A stretch of 64,000 nt of DNA from Natrinema salifodinae (lineage in GTDB: Archaea; Halobacteriota; Halobacteria; Halobacteriales; Natrialbaceae), in NCBI RefSeq assembly GCF_900110455.1, contig NZ_FOIS01000004.1:186001-250000 (forward strand). The letters are read 5' to 3'. Below are positions 23,147 through 27,541 of this stretch, piece by piece. How positions within the stretch are numbered: the stretch's first letter is position 1; each line of letters starts with the position of its first letter. The notes below the pieces were generated by a model. It searched no databases. It was given only the letters and a program-made list of their open reading frames with translations, and was not told the origin of the DNA. The position numbers and the translations under genes were made by a program.

Positions 23147-23178
23147 AAGCCTAGGCCGGGATTTGAACCCGGGCTCTC
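23147..23178. repeat. Left attachment site (copy of the tRNA-Thr 3' half)
   Basis: These 32 bp are identical to 27469-27500, which holds the T-arm and acceptor end of tRNA-Thr plus two flanking bases. Outside the 32 bp the two sites differ completely. The fragment cannot be a whole tRNA: the sequence to its right does not supply a matching anticodon stem or the GCCTGGG acceptor strand. It is the duplicated end left by site-specific integration into tRNA-Thr. Confidence 0.9.
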
Positions 23179-23266: not shown

Positions 23267-24274
23267 ATGAGCCTGAAACCGACACCGCCGCACGACGCGA
23301 AGAACCGCTACCTCAACGACAAGAAGCCCGGCGTCACCAAGAAGACGCTCAAGAACTACCGGACGACGACTCGGCAGTTCTGTGACTGGCTGGACGAGCA
23401 GGGTATCACGGACCTCAACAACCTCGACAGCGAGGTTATCCAGCGGTACAAGGAACACCGTCTGTCGAACGTGAAGGTCATCACGGCCCGGCAGGACATG
23501 ATGACACTCAAGCAGTTCATCGAGTTCTGCGAACACATCCAAGCTGTCCCTCGGGGCATGGCCGATATGGTTCGGATTCCCTCTGTGAGCGAAGACGACG
23601 AGATTTGTGACGACCTCCTGACCCGGGAAGAGGCATCGGACGTGCTGGGTTTCCTCGGTAAGTTCGAGTACGCGAGCAACCGCCACGTCACTCTGCTAAT
23701 CCTCTGGAAGACGGGTATGCGGATGAGCGGGCTTCGAGCACTCGATTTAGAAGACTTTGATGAGGGACGGCCCGCCCTCGAACTCCGTCACCGGCCAACG
23801 TCAGGAACGCCGCTGAAGAACAAAGAGAAGAGCGCGCGAGACGTGCTGATTACGTCCGAGACGGCAGAGGTCATCCGTGACTACGTGGAAAGAAATAGAG
23901 AAACCGTGACCGACAAGCAGGGACGAAAACCGCTTCTCACGTCTAAGAGCGGTCGTGTAGTAGAAACAACGATTCAACGCTACGTCTACACTGCGACTCG
24001 TCCCTGCTACTACAACGGCGGCGAGTGCCCGTTTGATCGTGAGCCGGATACCTGCGAGGCAATGTCGTGGAATGCCTCGTGTAAGTGTCCGGGTAGCGTT
24101 AGTCCGCATGCTCTACGTCGTGGGTATGTGACCGCCGCCCGGAACGCGGGCCAACCGAAGGATGTGACCGGCGAGCGTGTGAATATGAGCGGAAAGGTGC
24201 TCGATAAACACTATGACAAAGGTTCCACGGCGGAAAAAGCCGAGAGAAGACGAGGATTCATTCGAGATATTTGA
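23267..24274 (+). CDS. Tyrosine-type site-specific integrase
   Basis: This encodes 335 residues. The N-terminal SAM-like core-binding domain (about 20-105) has TLKNYRTTTRQFCDWLDEQG. The catalytic domain carries the first Arg in LILWKTGMRMSGLRALDLED (about 145-164), a beta-strand Lys near NKEKSARDVLIT, the box II SPHALRRGYVT (H-x-x-R, about 280-290), and HYDKGS with the nucleophile Tyr near 314. A Cys-rich insert (CYYNGGECPF, CEAMSWNASCKC) before box II may bind zinc and occurs in some haloarchaeal integrases. It lies next to its att site and should catalyse insertion into, and excision from, tRNA-Thr. Confidence 0.92.
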   Translation: MSLKPTPPHDAKNRYLNDKKPGVTKKTLKNYRTTTRQFCDWLDEQGITDLNNLDSEVIQRYKEHRLSNVKVITARQDMMTLKQFIEFCEHIQAVPRGMADMVRIPSVSEDDEICDDLLTREEASDVLGFLGKFEYASNRHVTLLILWKTGMRMSGLRALDLEDFDEGRPALELRHRPTSGTPLKNKEKSARDVLITSETAEVIRDYVERNRETVTDKQGRKPLLTSKSGRVVETTIQRYVYTATRPCYYNGGECPFDREPDTCEAMSWNASCKCPGSVSPHALRRGYVTAARNAGQPKDVTGERVNMSGKVLDKHYDKGSTAEKAERRRGFIRDI

Positions 24275-24309: not shown

Positions 24310-25035
24310 ATGTTAGATGATGTGGACGTTCCAAGAGTGTATACTGATTCTGAGCAACTTTCTGGGATTACAGAGGAATATGTTTGCTGGTTAGATTTGA
24401 TGGCGGTTCGAGGAACAATGTCTCGTTCTCTTGAAACATCGGCTATTACGATACTGAATTTGCACGTTGCAATTGATGACGCTCTGGATAGGGAGACAAT
24501 GACACATTATCCGATAATGGATGGAGTCTACCTGACGTCCGAAAATAAATGGGATATGTTGAATACTCTTGGAGATATATTTTCAAAAATTGCAAAAGAT
24601 AACATCGAAAATGCGAATACGGAATATATGTACATACCTCGTGCATCATTATCATTCGGCCCGATCCTACACGGAAAGAATATACCGGAAGAATTGAACA
24701 GAGAATTTGTCGGAAATTCAGATTACATTGAATCTATTCTGCTTGGACTTCCGATGATTCAAGCCGTAGAAAATGAACCTAATGCACCACCTTTCGGGAT
24801 ATACGTAGATAAATCTGCTCGTGCATTTGCGCCGGGAGATGACGACCCGATAGAAACTCCATGGCATAGGTGGTTTCGTTATATCGATGAAGATGCTGAT
24901 GCTCTTGGCAGTGAACTTTATGATGAACTCAGCGAATATTATAAATGGTGCAAGTCTAATTCGAACTATCTTGAATATCCCGAGGAAGATATAGAGAAGC
25001 ACAAATCGATGGCTGAAGAATATCTGACCCAATAA
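24310..25035 (+). CDS. Putative class III nucleotide-cyclase-like protein
   Basis: This encodes 241 residues from the ATG at 24310; a TTG at 24271 overlapping the integrase stop is an alternative. The motif order matches class III cyclases. EEYVCWLDLMAVRGTMS places Asp29 where the first metal ligand (F-x-D-I-x-G-F) sits. YPIMDGVYLTSEN places Asp71 like the second metal ligand. PRASLSFGPILHG (111-122) resembles the R-I-G-I-H-x-G strand. ILLGLPMIQAVENEP (143-157) followed by FGIYVDKSARAF resembles V-x-G-x-x-V-N-x-A-A-R and its exit strand. There is no sensor domain. Base composition is very AT-rich, unlike the host. Possible roles are second-messenger synthesis for defence (compare Pycsar cyclases) or an inactive relative. 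I infer the fold from motifs only. Confidence 0.5.
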   Translation: MLDDVDVPRVYTDSEQLSGITEEYVCWLDLMAVRGTMSRSLETSAITILNLHVAIDDALDRETMTHYPIMDGVYLTSENKWDMLNTLGDIFSKIAKDNIENANTEYMYIPRASLSFGPILHGKNIPEELNREFVGNSDYIESILLGLPMIQAVENEPNAPPFGIYVDKSARAFAPGDDDPIETPWHRWFRYIDEDADALGSELYDELSEYYKWCKSNSNYLEYPEEDIEKHKSMAEEYLTQ

Positions 25036-25087: not shown

Positions 25088-25951
25088 CTACAATCCTTGT
25101 GACTCAAGGCTCCGCTCCCAGCGTTTGGTGGGGACGTGCCACGAACCGCAACTCTTGCAGTGGAGAATATGAACACCGTAGGTGACTTCTTTTCTCTCCG
25201 AATCCCCATTTTGGGTGACGGTGACGACATCGCGGTTCTCGGGTTTGAAGAACTGCTTCTTCGATTCTAGAGCAAACGGGCTTCGACACACGGGGCACGT
25301 CGAATCCGATTTAATTTCAAAATACGCGATTCCGATGGTCGCGATGGCGATACTCACGCCTACCACTAACTGTGTCTGCTCAATGGGTTGATTGGAGGGG
25401 TAGACTTCAGTTAGCGGCTCAATGAATGCCATCGTCATATTATCGGGGAAGAACGAGAGGAAGACGAAGTACAAGAGTACGAGACTACCCATCGTTAACC
25501 CGAGGAGGGATAGTTCGAATGTTTTGCTCGAGAATACTTCAGAGTGAAAGAGTCGCCGGAGTCGGGATCTCCAAAAAATCGAGTACCCACCGTGCCCATC
25601 TGGATGCCAGTTCGGAGAATTGTAAATCACCTGTACCACACGTTTCGGCGGGAGTTGGGAAAGCACGCCATCGTCTACGTCGAGGTCGAAGCCCTTTTCG
25701 CCGGACGCTGGTCGTGTCCCAGCAGTTTGTGATTCATCAAGCTCTACCTCATGTACTGTCTCGGATATTTCTTCGGGGAGCTCGAAATAATGAGTATAAA
25801 CACCGAACAGTCCGAAAGCGAGAGTCGCAAGTACTCCGATTACCCCGAGACTTGTACTTGCAAGGAACAGTACACTCCCCACGATACTCGCTGACGCAGC
25901 GACGATTGTGATTAACACGATTGCCCGCAACTGTCCTTCGCGTTGGCTCAT
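25088..25951 (-). CDS. Four-helix membrane protein with C-terminal zinc ribbon
   Basis: This encodes 287 residues from the ATG at 25949-25951. Two adjacent helices near the N-terminus (IVLITIVAASASIVGSVLFL and the following GVIGVLATLAFGLFGVYTHY) are followed by a soluble acidic region of about 90 residues. Two more helices follow (LSLLGLTMGSLVLLYFVFLS; QLVVGVSIAIATIGIAYF). The C-terminal domain has CPVCRSPF and CKSCGSWH about 47 residues apart, a zinc ribbon. It is convergent with the cyclase-like gene, 52 bp apart. The combination could be a membrane effector with a soluble sensor, but no nucleotide-binding domain is recognisable. Function is unknown. Confidence 0.7.
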   Translation of the reverse strand: MSQREGQLRAIVLITIVAASASIVGSVLFLASTSLGVIGVLATLAFGLFGVYTHYFELPEEISETVHEVELDESQTAGTRPASGEKGFDLDVDDGVLSQLPPKRVVQVIYNSPNWHPDGHGGYSIFWRSRLRRLFHSEVFSSKTFELSLLGLTMGSLVLLYFVFLSFFPDNMTMAFIEPLTEVYPSNQPIEQTQLVVGVSIAIATIGIAYFEIKSDSTCPVCRSPFALESKKQFFKPENRDVVTVTQNGDSERKEVTYGVHILHCKSCGSWHVPTKRWERSLESQGL

Positions 25952-26397
25952 TCTTAAAGACGTCAACGAGTGCGGATGAAATGAAACTAGCCATTGTTAA
26001 CGCTGAGGCTATTTCAACCGGTTACCACCATCCATGCTTTCTGTTTGTTATATTGATGCTATCGAGAATCATGAAATCTGGAGTCAAGCGTAAAACCGAT
26101 GATGGACCATACAAATTGGATACCCGTGTCCCGCCTAGTCTGATACAGCACGTTAAAAGCGTACTGTGAACATCGGGAACCCCCGCTTCCGGCCCTGACT
26201 CGCTACGGTTGCCCGCTGCGGGGAAAGTCGGTTGACCGTTACTGGTAACTGTGGCGACCTCATCCGGTACTGTTCTTCCCGTTGTGAACCGTGCTGTTAC
26301 CCGCATACTGGGAACGTGAGCGTATTCACACTCTCTCTGTTCTCTCATTAGAGTAGAATGATATGGGGTTTATATAGGGGTGGGGAGGGGGAGGATA
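25952..26397. other. Element interior without a confident gene
   Basis: This stretch lies between the starts/ends of the two minus-strand element genes. A minus-strand frame (26022-26303) beginning MRVTARFTTGRTVPDEV could encode a short protein, but it is basic and lacks any recognised motif. The right part (26360-26400) has GGGTTTATATAGGGG, a TATA-like element, followed by a G-run. The stretch may hold the promoter of the membrane-protein gene and an element-specific regulatory site. Confidence 0.35.
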
Positions 26398-27009
26398 TCA
26401 CCCTTGATACTTCTCCGTTGCTTGAGATATCTTGTTGTAGATGCTGATGAGGTCTTTCTCGCGGTATCCTTCGCACTCAGCAATTCTCTCAAATTCAGGA
26501 TCCATATCCTTGACTGATGGGTGGCACTTTCTTTCGCTTTCCTTTGCCCTGTGAATGACAACTGCGCACGTACAGTATGCGACAATACCAGCATTCACAC
26601 CGAACTTCCCTAGGTTAAGACTGAGAAACAGGCCTACCGCTTCCTGTTGATAACGTGGATTCAAACCCAATTGTCCTATAAGGGCCCAAATTAGGTGTCT
26701 ATTCAGTAGATCTGTTGTGTAGCCTTGATTAGTCCATTTTCTGTTCCGGAGTCCAGTATTATATTCCGACAACAGTTTGAACTTTTTTCGCTCGTCAAGG
26801 TCTACAATGTCATCATACCTAATTATCGTCGCATTCTGTGTATCTACATCTGTAATATCGGACTCCGGTTCTGGCTGAGTCTCTCCGACGTATTTCCAGC
26901 GGTTCTTTTTGAAGTTAGAACAGTCAACAAAGTCCATTCCGTCTGGGGCATAGTTACCGCTCTGGCCTTTCGGGTCATAGCCGCCGCTCTGGGTTGCTGT
27001 AGCACTCAT
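26398..27009 (-). CDS. RNA polymerase epsilon-like (cyclin-fold) protein of the element
   Basis: This encodes 203 residues. The N-terminal half is polar and probably flexible. The C-terminal 100 residues read LIWALIGQLGLNPRYQQEAV, GLFLSLNLGKFGVNAGIVAY, CTCAVVIHRAKESER and IAECEGYREKDLISIYNKIS. This follows the chromosomal RNA polymerase epsilon protein of this window (45122-45904) position by position: L-x-P-x-x-x-x-A, then (I/L)-x-L-x-x-F-G, then V-V-I-(R/H), then a closing helix pair. The epsilon family is a TFB/cyclin-like fold found in haloarchaea. An element-borne copy may redirect transcription. An AT-rich block directly upstream (27010-27030) suggests a strong promoter and short leader. 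The homology call is by eye. Confidence 0.55.
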   Translation of the reverse strand: MSATATQSGGYDPKGQSGNYAPDGMDFVDCSNFKKNRWKYVGETQPEPESDITDVDTQNATIIRYDDIVDLDERKKFKLLSEYNTGLRNRKWTNQGYTTDLLNRHLIWALIGQLGLNPRYQQEAVGLFLSLNLGKFGVNAGIVAYCTCAVVIHRAKESERKCHPSVKDMDPEFERIAECEGYREKDLISIYNKISQATEKYQG

Positions 27010-27470
27010 TATTAATTTTTTAGTTCTCCAACTGGATAGGGATCTCGCGCAAAACCCTTTTCAAAACGGACTTTACCGCATACGCGCCGCTCGGAAAGAG
27101 ACGCCAGCGAAGAACCTGCTCACAAGAGTAAACGCAATCCAGTCGCAAATAATTTTTGTTCACTTATTGACAATGATGCGCGAGGCGATATTCCCGAGAA
27201 ATTTTCTGGCGAAGTAACGATTGTGCCCGCGCCGGTCGAAAGTTTAGTGTTCTAACCGGTGGCCGCCGTTCTCGATGATAACCTGTTTGGAACCGTAATT
27301 CTCCAAAACCGACGCACGACGTACGGTGACCGCGGGTGCGGGTGTCCTTGACGGCGTCAATCCACCGGCAAAATCCTCTGTGAGACGGGTAGGATTCCCG
27401 TTGCTAATCGGGATAAATACTAAATGTAAGAGGCGCTATCTACGAATTACAGTCTGCGCCGCAGGCGCAA
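27010..27470. other. Right end of the element, no gene seen
   Basis: This stretch has mixed composition: an AT-rich block next to the epsilon-like gene start, then a GC-richer part. GCGCCGCAGGCGC just before the att core (about 27456-27468) is a small inverted repeat. No reading frame has haloarchaeal codon or acidity character. By position it is the attachment-proximal region opposite the integrase. Confidence 0.45.
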
Positions 27471-27500
27471 GCCTAGGCCGGGATTTGAACCCGGGCTCTC
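27469..27500. repeat. Right attachment site within tRNA-Thr
   Basis: This is the second copy of the 32-bp direct repeat. It covers the T-arm, the acceptor 3' strand and two bases beyond the tRNA-Thr gene. To its right the native anticodon and D arms follow, so this copy restores the functional tRNA. Confidence 0.9.
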
Positions 27501-27541
27501 GTCCTTACCAAGGACGCGCTTTACCGCTAAGCTACCCAGGC
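27471..27541 (-). tRNA. tRNA-Thr (GGT)
   Basis: It reads on the minus strand with acceptor strand GCCTGGG pairing CCTAGGC (one G-U pair). The D arm is GCTTAGCGGTAAAGC and the anticodon stem is CGTCC/GGACG around the 7-base loop TTGGTAA, giving anticodon GGT. The T arm is CCGGG-TTCAAAT-CCCGG. No CCA is encoded, as usual in archaea. A TATA-like TTTAT at 27572-27576 lies about 33 bp upstream. The 3' half is the integration target of the adjacent element. Confidence 0.95.

Follow-up and report, generated by a model that had tools for sequence, protein, structure and literature searches.

The 64,000-nucleotide stretch of Natrinema salifodinae DNA analysed here (hereafter the window) carries, inside a small element integrated at a tRNA-Thr gene, a gene for a protein with the predicted fold of the class III nucleotidyl cyclases, the alpha/beta palm. 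The gene is an exchangeable cargo of this element. Its product belongs to a new, discrete and unnamed family which is without an entry in Pfam, NCBIfam, PHROGs or PADLOC. The reading which we prefer, and to which we give about an even chance, is that of a stand-alone class III cyclase-fold enzyme carried as cargo by the tRNA-Thr element and serving as a single-gene antiviral or competitor-exclusion factor. The features of the element and of the protein are collected in Table 1.

Table 1. Features of the tRNA-Thr element and of the cyclase-like protein, in window coordinates
Feature	Position	Strand	Remarks
Distal att repeat, 32 bp, copies 3' part of tRNA-Thr	23147..23178	.	exact direct repeat of 27469-27500
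Tyrosine integrase, 335 aa	23267..24274	+	Phage_int_SAM_1 2.8e-7; phrog_1 integrase 5.9e-27
Gene for predicted class III nucleotidyl cyclase-fold protein	24310..25035	+	241 aa, 36 bp past integrase stop
W27-L-D29: putative first metal Asp and invariant pocket Trp (D1-2)	24388..24396	+	28/28 members
Y67-P-I-M-D71-G72: putative second metal Asp, beta2-beta3 turn	24508..24525	+	D71 and G72 28/28, Y/F67 25/28
R111 to G122, beta4 (RASLSFGPILHG)	24640..24675	+	R/K111 and G117 28/28
G146 to E156 helix, site of catalytic Asn and Arg in cyclases	24745..24777	+	G146, E156 28/28
Membrane protein, 4 predicted TM, C-terminal CxxC...CxxC zinc ribbon	25088..25966	-	separate cargo
203-aa protein, PHROG 12649	26398..27009	-	common to tailed haloviruses and sister elements
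Proximal att repeat within tRNA-Thr	27469..27500	.	exact 32-bp direct repeat
tRNA-Thr (GGT), integration site	27470..27541	-	ARAGORN

The ATG taken as the start of the cyclase-like gene aligns with the starts of its closest homologs; a longer TTG frame begins at 24271. The GC content of the gene is 0.40, against 0.50 for the element and 0.66 for the remainder of the window. The product contains W27-L-D29-L-M31, Y67-P-I-M-D71-G-V-Y, R111-A-S-L-S-F-G-P-I-L-H-G, G146-L-P-M-I-Q-A-V-E-N-E156 and F-G-I-Y-V. These are all the motifs from which a first-pass annotation had proposed a class III cyclase without a sensor domain, and the lack of a sensor domain was supported as well. At the sequence level the protein gave zero matches in Pfam, PADLOC, PHROGs, NCBIfam or the PDB sequences. 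When Pfam, PADLOC and PDB were searched by profile or member by member, with 14 or 28 members of the family, nothing meaningful was obtained, and two PADLOC scans of the family returned one weak, unrelated match only. The PF00211 profile of the class III cyclases matched neither the window protein nor any of the 28 members.

An AlphaFold2 model, built on an alignment of 14 family members, has a pLDDT of 85.5 and a pTM of 0.84. The PDB structures that match it best are those of class III cyclases (best Foldseek E 2.9e-5), and the highest VIA Z, 14.9, was obtained with 1y11 (Rv1264) over 153 residues at 3.8 A. The class III assignment of the first-pass annotation is supported by this modelled fold. 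Strand 1 of the model terminates in W27-x-D29, and the DSSP strands 64-69 and 72-77 form a hairpin which turns at D71. Placed by sequence and DSSP on the model, D29 and D71 occupy both metal positions of the class III cyclases; thus the predicted cyclase fold and the two aligned acidic residues for metal binding, with which the first-pass annotation was to stand or fall, were both found. W27, D29, M31, D71, G72, G117, G146 and E156 are fully invariant in the 28 members, even though the mean column identity across divergent members is 31%. The window protein has 47 acidic residues, and those kept in every member are exactly D29, D71 and E156.

The first-pass annotation had pointed to the metal residues and to the residues of base specificity. 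The former are the invariant D29 and D71. Of the latter the canonical ones for base recognition are absent, and so are the canonical residues of the transition state. Counted from G146 as in the mammalian cyclases, by motif alignment, the positions of the catalytic Asn and Arg are presumably those of I150 and E154 here. Among the 28 members position 150 is I, A, V, S or T and position 154 is occupied by mixed residues, so that the catalytic Asn and Arg are missing. The pair which specifies a purine (Lys/Asp-Thr or Glu/Cys) is missing too, as D2-4 is Y, F, L or V and the second position is I, L, V, M or T. Since the Asn, the Arg and the purine pair are missing, it is uncertain what the product is and even whether the protein is catalytic. 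With the metal site retained, the substitutions would allow an unusual chemistry.

These losses, with hydrophobic residues standing where the canonical Asn, Arg and purine-recognition residues would be, together with a sequence similarity to active cyclases that is undetectable, are what would be expected of a protein that has the class III fold but is no cyclase. Such a protein could be a pseudo-enzyme, a nucleotide sensor or another NTP-consuming enzyme. We consider this reading unlikely, though it deserves to be taken seriously. Both metal Asp residues are strictly kept even in very divergent members, which fits catalysis rather than mere binding. Moreover, pyrimidine cyclases depart likewise from the purine pattern and use other residues for base recognition (PMC11224242). 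The window protein is probably catalytically active, and a cyclic nucleotide is slightly favoured as its product.

The family can be compared with several known systems. With the class III nucleotidyl cyclases (PF00211; Rv1264, Rv1900c) it shares the predicted fold and the order of elements, the two metal Asp residues in beta1 and in the beta2-beta3 turn, and the Gly-x5-Ala-x3-Glu frame in the helix after beta5. It differs from the canonical members in lacking the ribose Asn, the transition-state Arg and the Lys/Asp or Glu/Cys purine pair, in having Trp and not Phe two residues before the first Asp, and in the addition of a C-terminal helical part with the conserved residues W188, Y210 and H231. 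PycC, the cyclase of Pycsar, is similar in being a small, sensorless, single-domain class III fold with two metal Asp residues, and position D1-2 is aromatic in both, F or Y in PycC and W in the window family. Three sets of base-pocket residues are described for PycC, namely Y50/D94/R97, F100/R142/Q144 and F60/K104/F109 (PMC11224242). In a motif alignment the window family fits none of them, as it has Y or F at D2-4, an aliphatic residue at D2-2 and Gly at D2+1. Unlike PycC, the window protein has no zinc-finger pattern (its only cysteines are C26 and C214) and the family has no fixed effector gene. No PycC structure was among the best 50 matches listed per fold search, lists which are crowded by adenylyl cyclases and hence uninformative on this point. 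The PADLOC model of PycC gave no match in a scan that was without a PycC positive control. The protein is filed under the class III cyclase fold and not under Pycsar.

A further relationship was found with proteins of prophages and viral contigs which we call FIDILGF proteins. A profile-profile comparison matched them to the family with 96% probability (E 4.5e-9). They share the order RG-x-I-x-x-G ... G-x-x-x-x-x-A-x-x-x-E and have a predicted class III fold, at lower confidence. They differ in having FxD and not WxD, FSDS and not YPxMDG, and another C-terminus. As they have no PADLOC match and no above-threshold Pfam match, they are a second unnamed and uncharacterised class III cyclase-like family; their loci are L123 11482-12384, L110 495-1280, L111 1349-1792 and L108 1-621 (L numbers denote the loci compared in this study). 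The PF00211 and FIDILGF profiles found nothing else in the host genome. Another lone palm-type nucleotide cyclase working in defence is the mCpol of Panoptes, which is Cas10-like and paired with 2TM-beta (PMC12657230). The window protein seems to differ from it, as far as mCpol could be compared by its description, in that its best fold matches are class III enzymes and that nothing like a 2TM-beta gene was seen.

It had been suggested in the first-pass annotation that the cyclase-like gene and the convergent membrane-protein gene form a pair as in the Pycsar antiviral systems. In such a pair a cyclic pyrimidine would open or activate the membrane protein. The gene next door is indeed convergent and encodes four predicted TM segments. 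Membrane proteins are also found near other family members, with 130 aa and 4 TM in L016, 248 aa and 4 TM in L027, and 106 aa with 1 TM and a zinc ribbon in L018. However, these neighbouring proteins fall in no common cluster, and the two genes of the window, being convergent, do not make one operon. The membrane protein has no known domain and gave no CNBD, SLATT, TIR or beta-barrel match. Its relatives occur in seven genomes, all of which were searched for the cyclase and found to be without it, and neither a cyclase nor an integrase was seen near the four relative loci inspected. When every frame lying up to 6 kb from a family member was clustered, no recurrent effector or partner emerged from the 29 loci; recombinases, methylase-like genes and a pleolipovirus-like module were all that recurred in at least three of them. 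The host genome has no protein with the cNMP-binding domain PF00027, a search for which the control was positive in 10 of 14 genomes. Hence the membrane protein, which belongs to a separate cargo family, was rejected as a Pycsar partner, and a Pycsar-like pair is very improbable. The fold, the metal residues and the element of the first-pass annotation were supported, and the Pycsar pairing was not. Its remark that such systems are described in bacteria was also too strong. Tal et al. 2021 are reported (PMC8646023) to have found proteins with a pyrimidine cyclase domain in a few euryarchaea, and Pycsar is listed in Asgard archaea (PMC11291487).

The integrative element, which had likewise been proposed from the first reading, is real, as it has an integrase and exact repeats of which one lies inside the tRNA gene. 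It is bounded by the repeats, measures about 4.35 kb and has four clear genes, for the integrase, the cyclase-like protein, the convergent membrane protein and the 203-aa protein. The last has relatives of about 30% identity in the tailed haloviruses HRTV, HSTV and HJTV, and similar proteins stand in sister elements, close to their tRNA end. Integrases 81-94% identical to that of the window were found in 13 other haloarchaeal genomes. In three of these (L016, L017 and L018) the integrase is followed by the cyclase-like gene, and in the other ten by different genes. A repeat of 15-36 bp, shared by tRNA-Thr(GGT) and the integrase end, was present in 12 of the 13 loci examined, the window included (L090 had none, and the stretch available for L016 was without the tRNA). 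The sister elements span 2.4-8.5 kb and many haloarchaeal genera, and they repeat the integrase, the tRNA-Thr and the virus-shared protein of the window element with differing cargo. The slot of the cyclase-like gene is taken there by, among others, an N6 methylase with HNH, HNH with HSDR_N, a type IV-like HNH nuclease, the candidate defence protein PDC-S31 or an HD protein. Among the elements that bear the cyclase-like gene, L017 has a DpnII-type nuclease (8.9e-44) and L018 has the SIR2 protein PDC-S65 (4e-185) and a protein kinase, all inside the att sites. With defence cargo that can be exchanged, the tRNA-Thr elements resemble virus satellites.

That the cyclase-like protein regulates or helps integration or excision of the element is highly unlikely: the gene does lie directly behind the integrase in four close-integrase elements, and the L019 member is convergent with another integrase, but the gene is missing from ten elements that share the tRNA-Thr site and have integrases of 82-94% identity, no tyrosine integrase lies close to most family members, and on the evidence of these close sister elements the role was rejected.

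The preferred reading, that of a cargo enzyme acting alone, may also be considered in the light of the distribution of the family. Three other haloarchaeal genomes contain close homologs (57-63% identical) and bacteria contain more distant ones, which puts the gene well beyond chance. The family is rare: in a search of the class of the host, 14 of 391 haloarchaeal genomes, from 11 of 86 genera, were found to have it, always in a single copy. A profile of 28 members run over the haloarchaeal genomes found the same 14 and none further, which marks the family as discrete and patchy. When species genomes of bacteria and archaea were scanned, 22 loci of the family were obtained. The bacterial members include those of Legionella, Faecalibacterium, Muribaculaceae, Sphingomonas, Aureimonas, Acetobacter and Rhizobium, with further members in a Hydrogenophilales MAG and an Armatimonadota MAG. 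The family thus reaches Pseudomonadota, Bacteroidota, Bacillota and, through the MAG, Armatimonadota. A maximum-likelihood tree places the window protein together with three other members from haloarchaea, followed by that of Halovenus, and two changes explain the domain label (archaea or bacteria) over the whole tree. With the queries used, no relative was found in viral contigs and phage records. The plasmid search gave one copy, frameshifted, on Rhizobium pRL7. Rhizobial members of the plasmid type, which lie near rep genes, seem to be broken (L004/L050 of pRL7, and L046); the pRL7 member is split into two annotated genes, and that of R. anhuiense is short.

Several family members in other genomes have genes of defence or of mobile elements beside them. 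A family member stands beside IetS and an AAA ATPase (IetAS) in L034, and is adjoined by Z1 with a GHKL ATPase in L045, by an Eco57I-type enzyme (type IIG restriction) in L031, by a type I specificity subunit in L016, by RhuM with TIR in L049 and by HNH in L044. Defence genes were close by in about 9 of the 29 loci, a raw count which has no matched random baseline. In L024, L027 and L028 the family member lies at one end of betapleolipovirus-like provirus modules, and the NTPase of the L028 module is 49.5% identical to that of HHPV3. HHPV4, which is a related virus, has a restriction enzyme for its cargo (PMC10101028). Members in ordinary backbone were also seen (L021, L022 and L025). Location among mobile and defence cargo is the recurring feature of the family, strong in the examples and judged from them without a random baseline. 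A defence role, which had been suggested from the first reading, is plausible from this genomic context, and we regard it as moderately likely.

The mechanism could be as follows. A dimer of the enzyme would take up a nucleoside triphosphate together with two divalent metals on D29 and D71, and W27 and Y67 would line the pocket in which the base sits. Upon infection, pyrophosphate and a cyclic nucleotide would be released (or NTPs consumed). The product might act on a receptor which is encoded elsewhere and not adjacent; alternatively, the reaction itself may harm the infected cell. The steps beyond the fold and the metal site are those that we infer. A bolder proposal, which we hold only tentatively and consider rather unlikely, is that of a one-gene antiviral system common to archaea and bacteria, having a Trp/Tyr pocket and no Asn/Arg, and making a non-canonical cyclic nucleotide with no co-encoded receptor.

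It has been reported that extracts of Haloferax volcanii contain cCMP and cUMP, and that queries with known pyrimidine cyclases gave no homolog there (PMC8646023). Because these nucleotides occur without a known cyclase homolog, divergent haloarchaeal cyclases merit attention. Haloferax and Legionella both have members of the present family, which was not found in most of the Haloferax species searched, and it need not explain the cCMP and cUMP of Haloferax volcanii. What the family offers is a defined, testable putative enzyme set among defence cargo. As the tRNA-Thr elements are compact and swap their cargo, they are a place to seek further archaeal defence genes. Unannotated gene pairs of low GC in the sister elements may be new defence systems (for example L089 4183-4976 and L097 3347-4915). 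In addition, a look-alike protein of about 311 aa (LFVLGRAVEKALLELGQ...) is common to L094 3903-4838 and L093 5748-6686.
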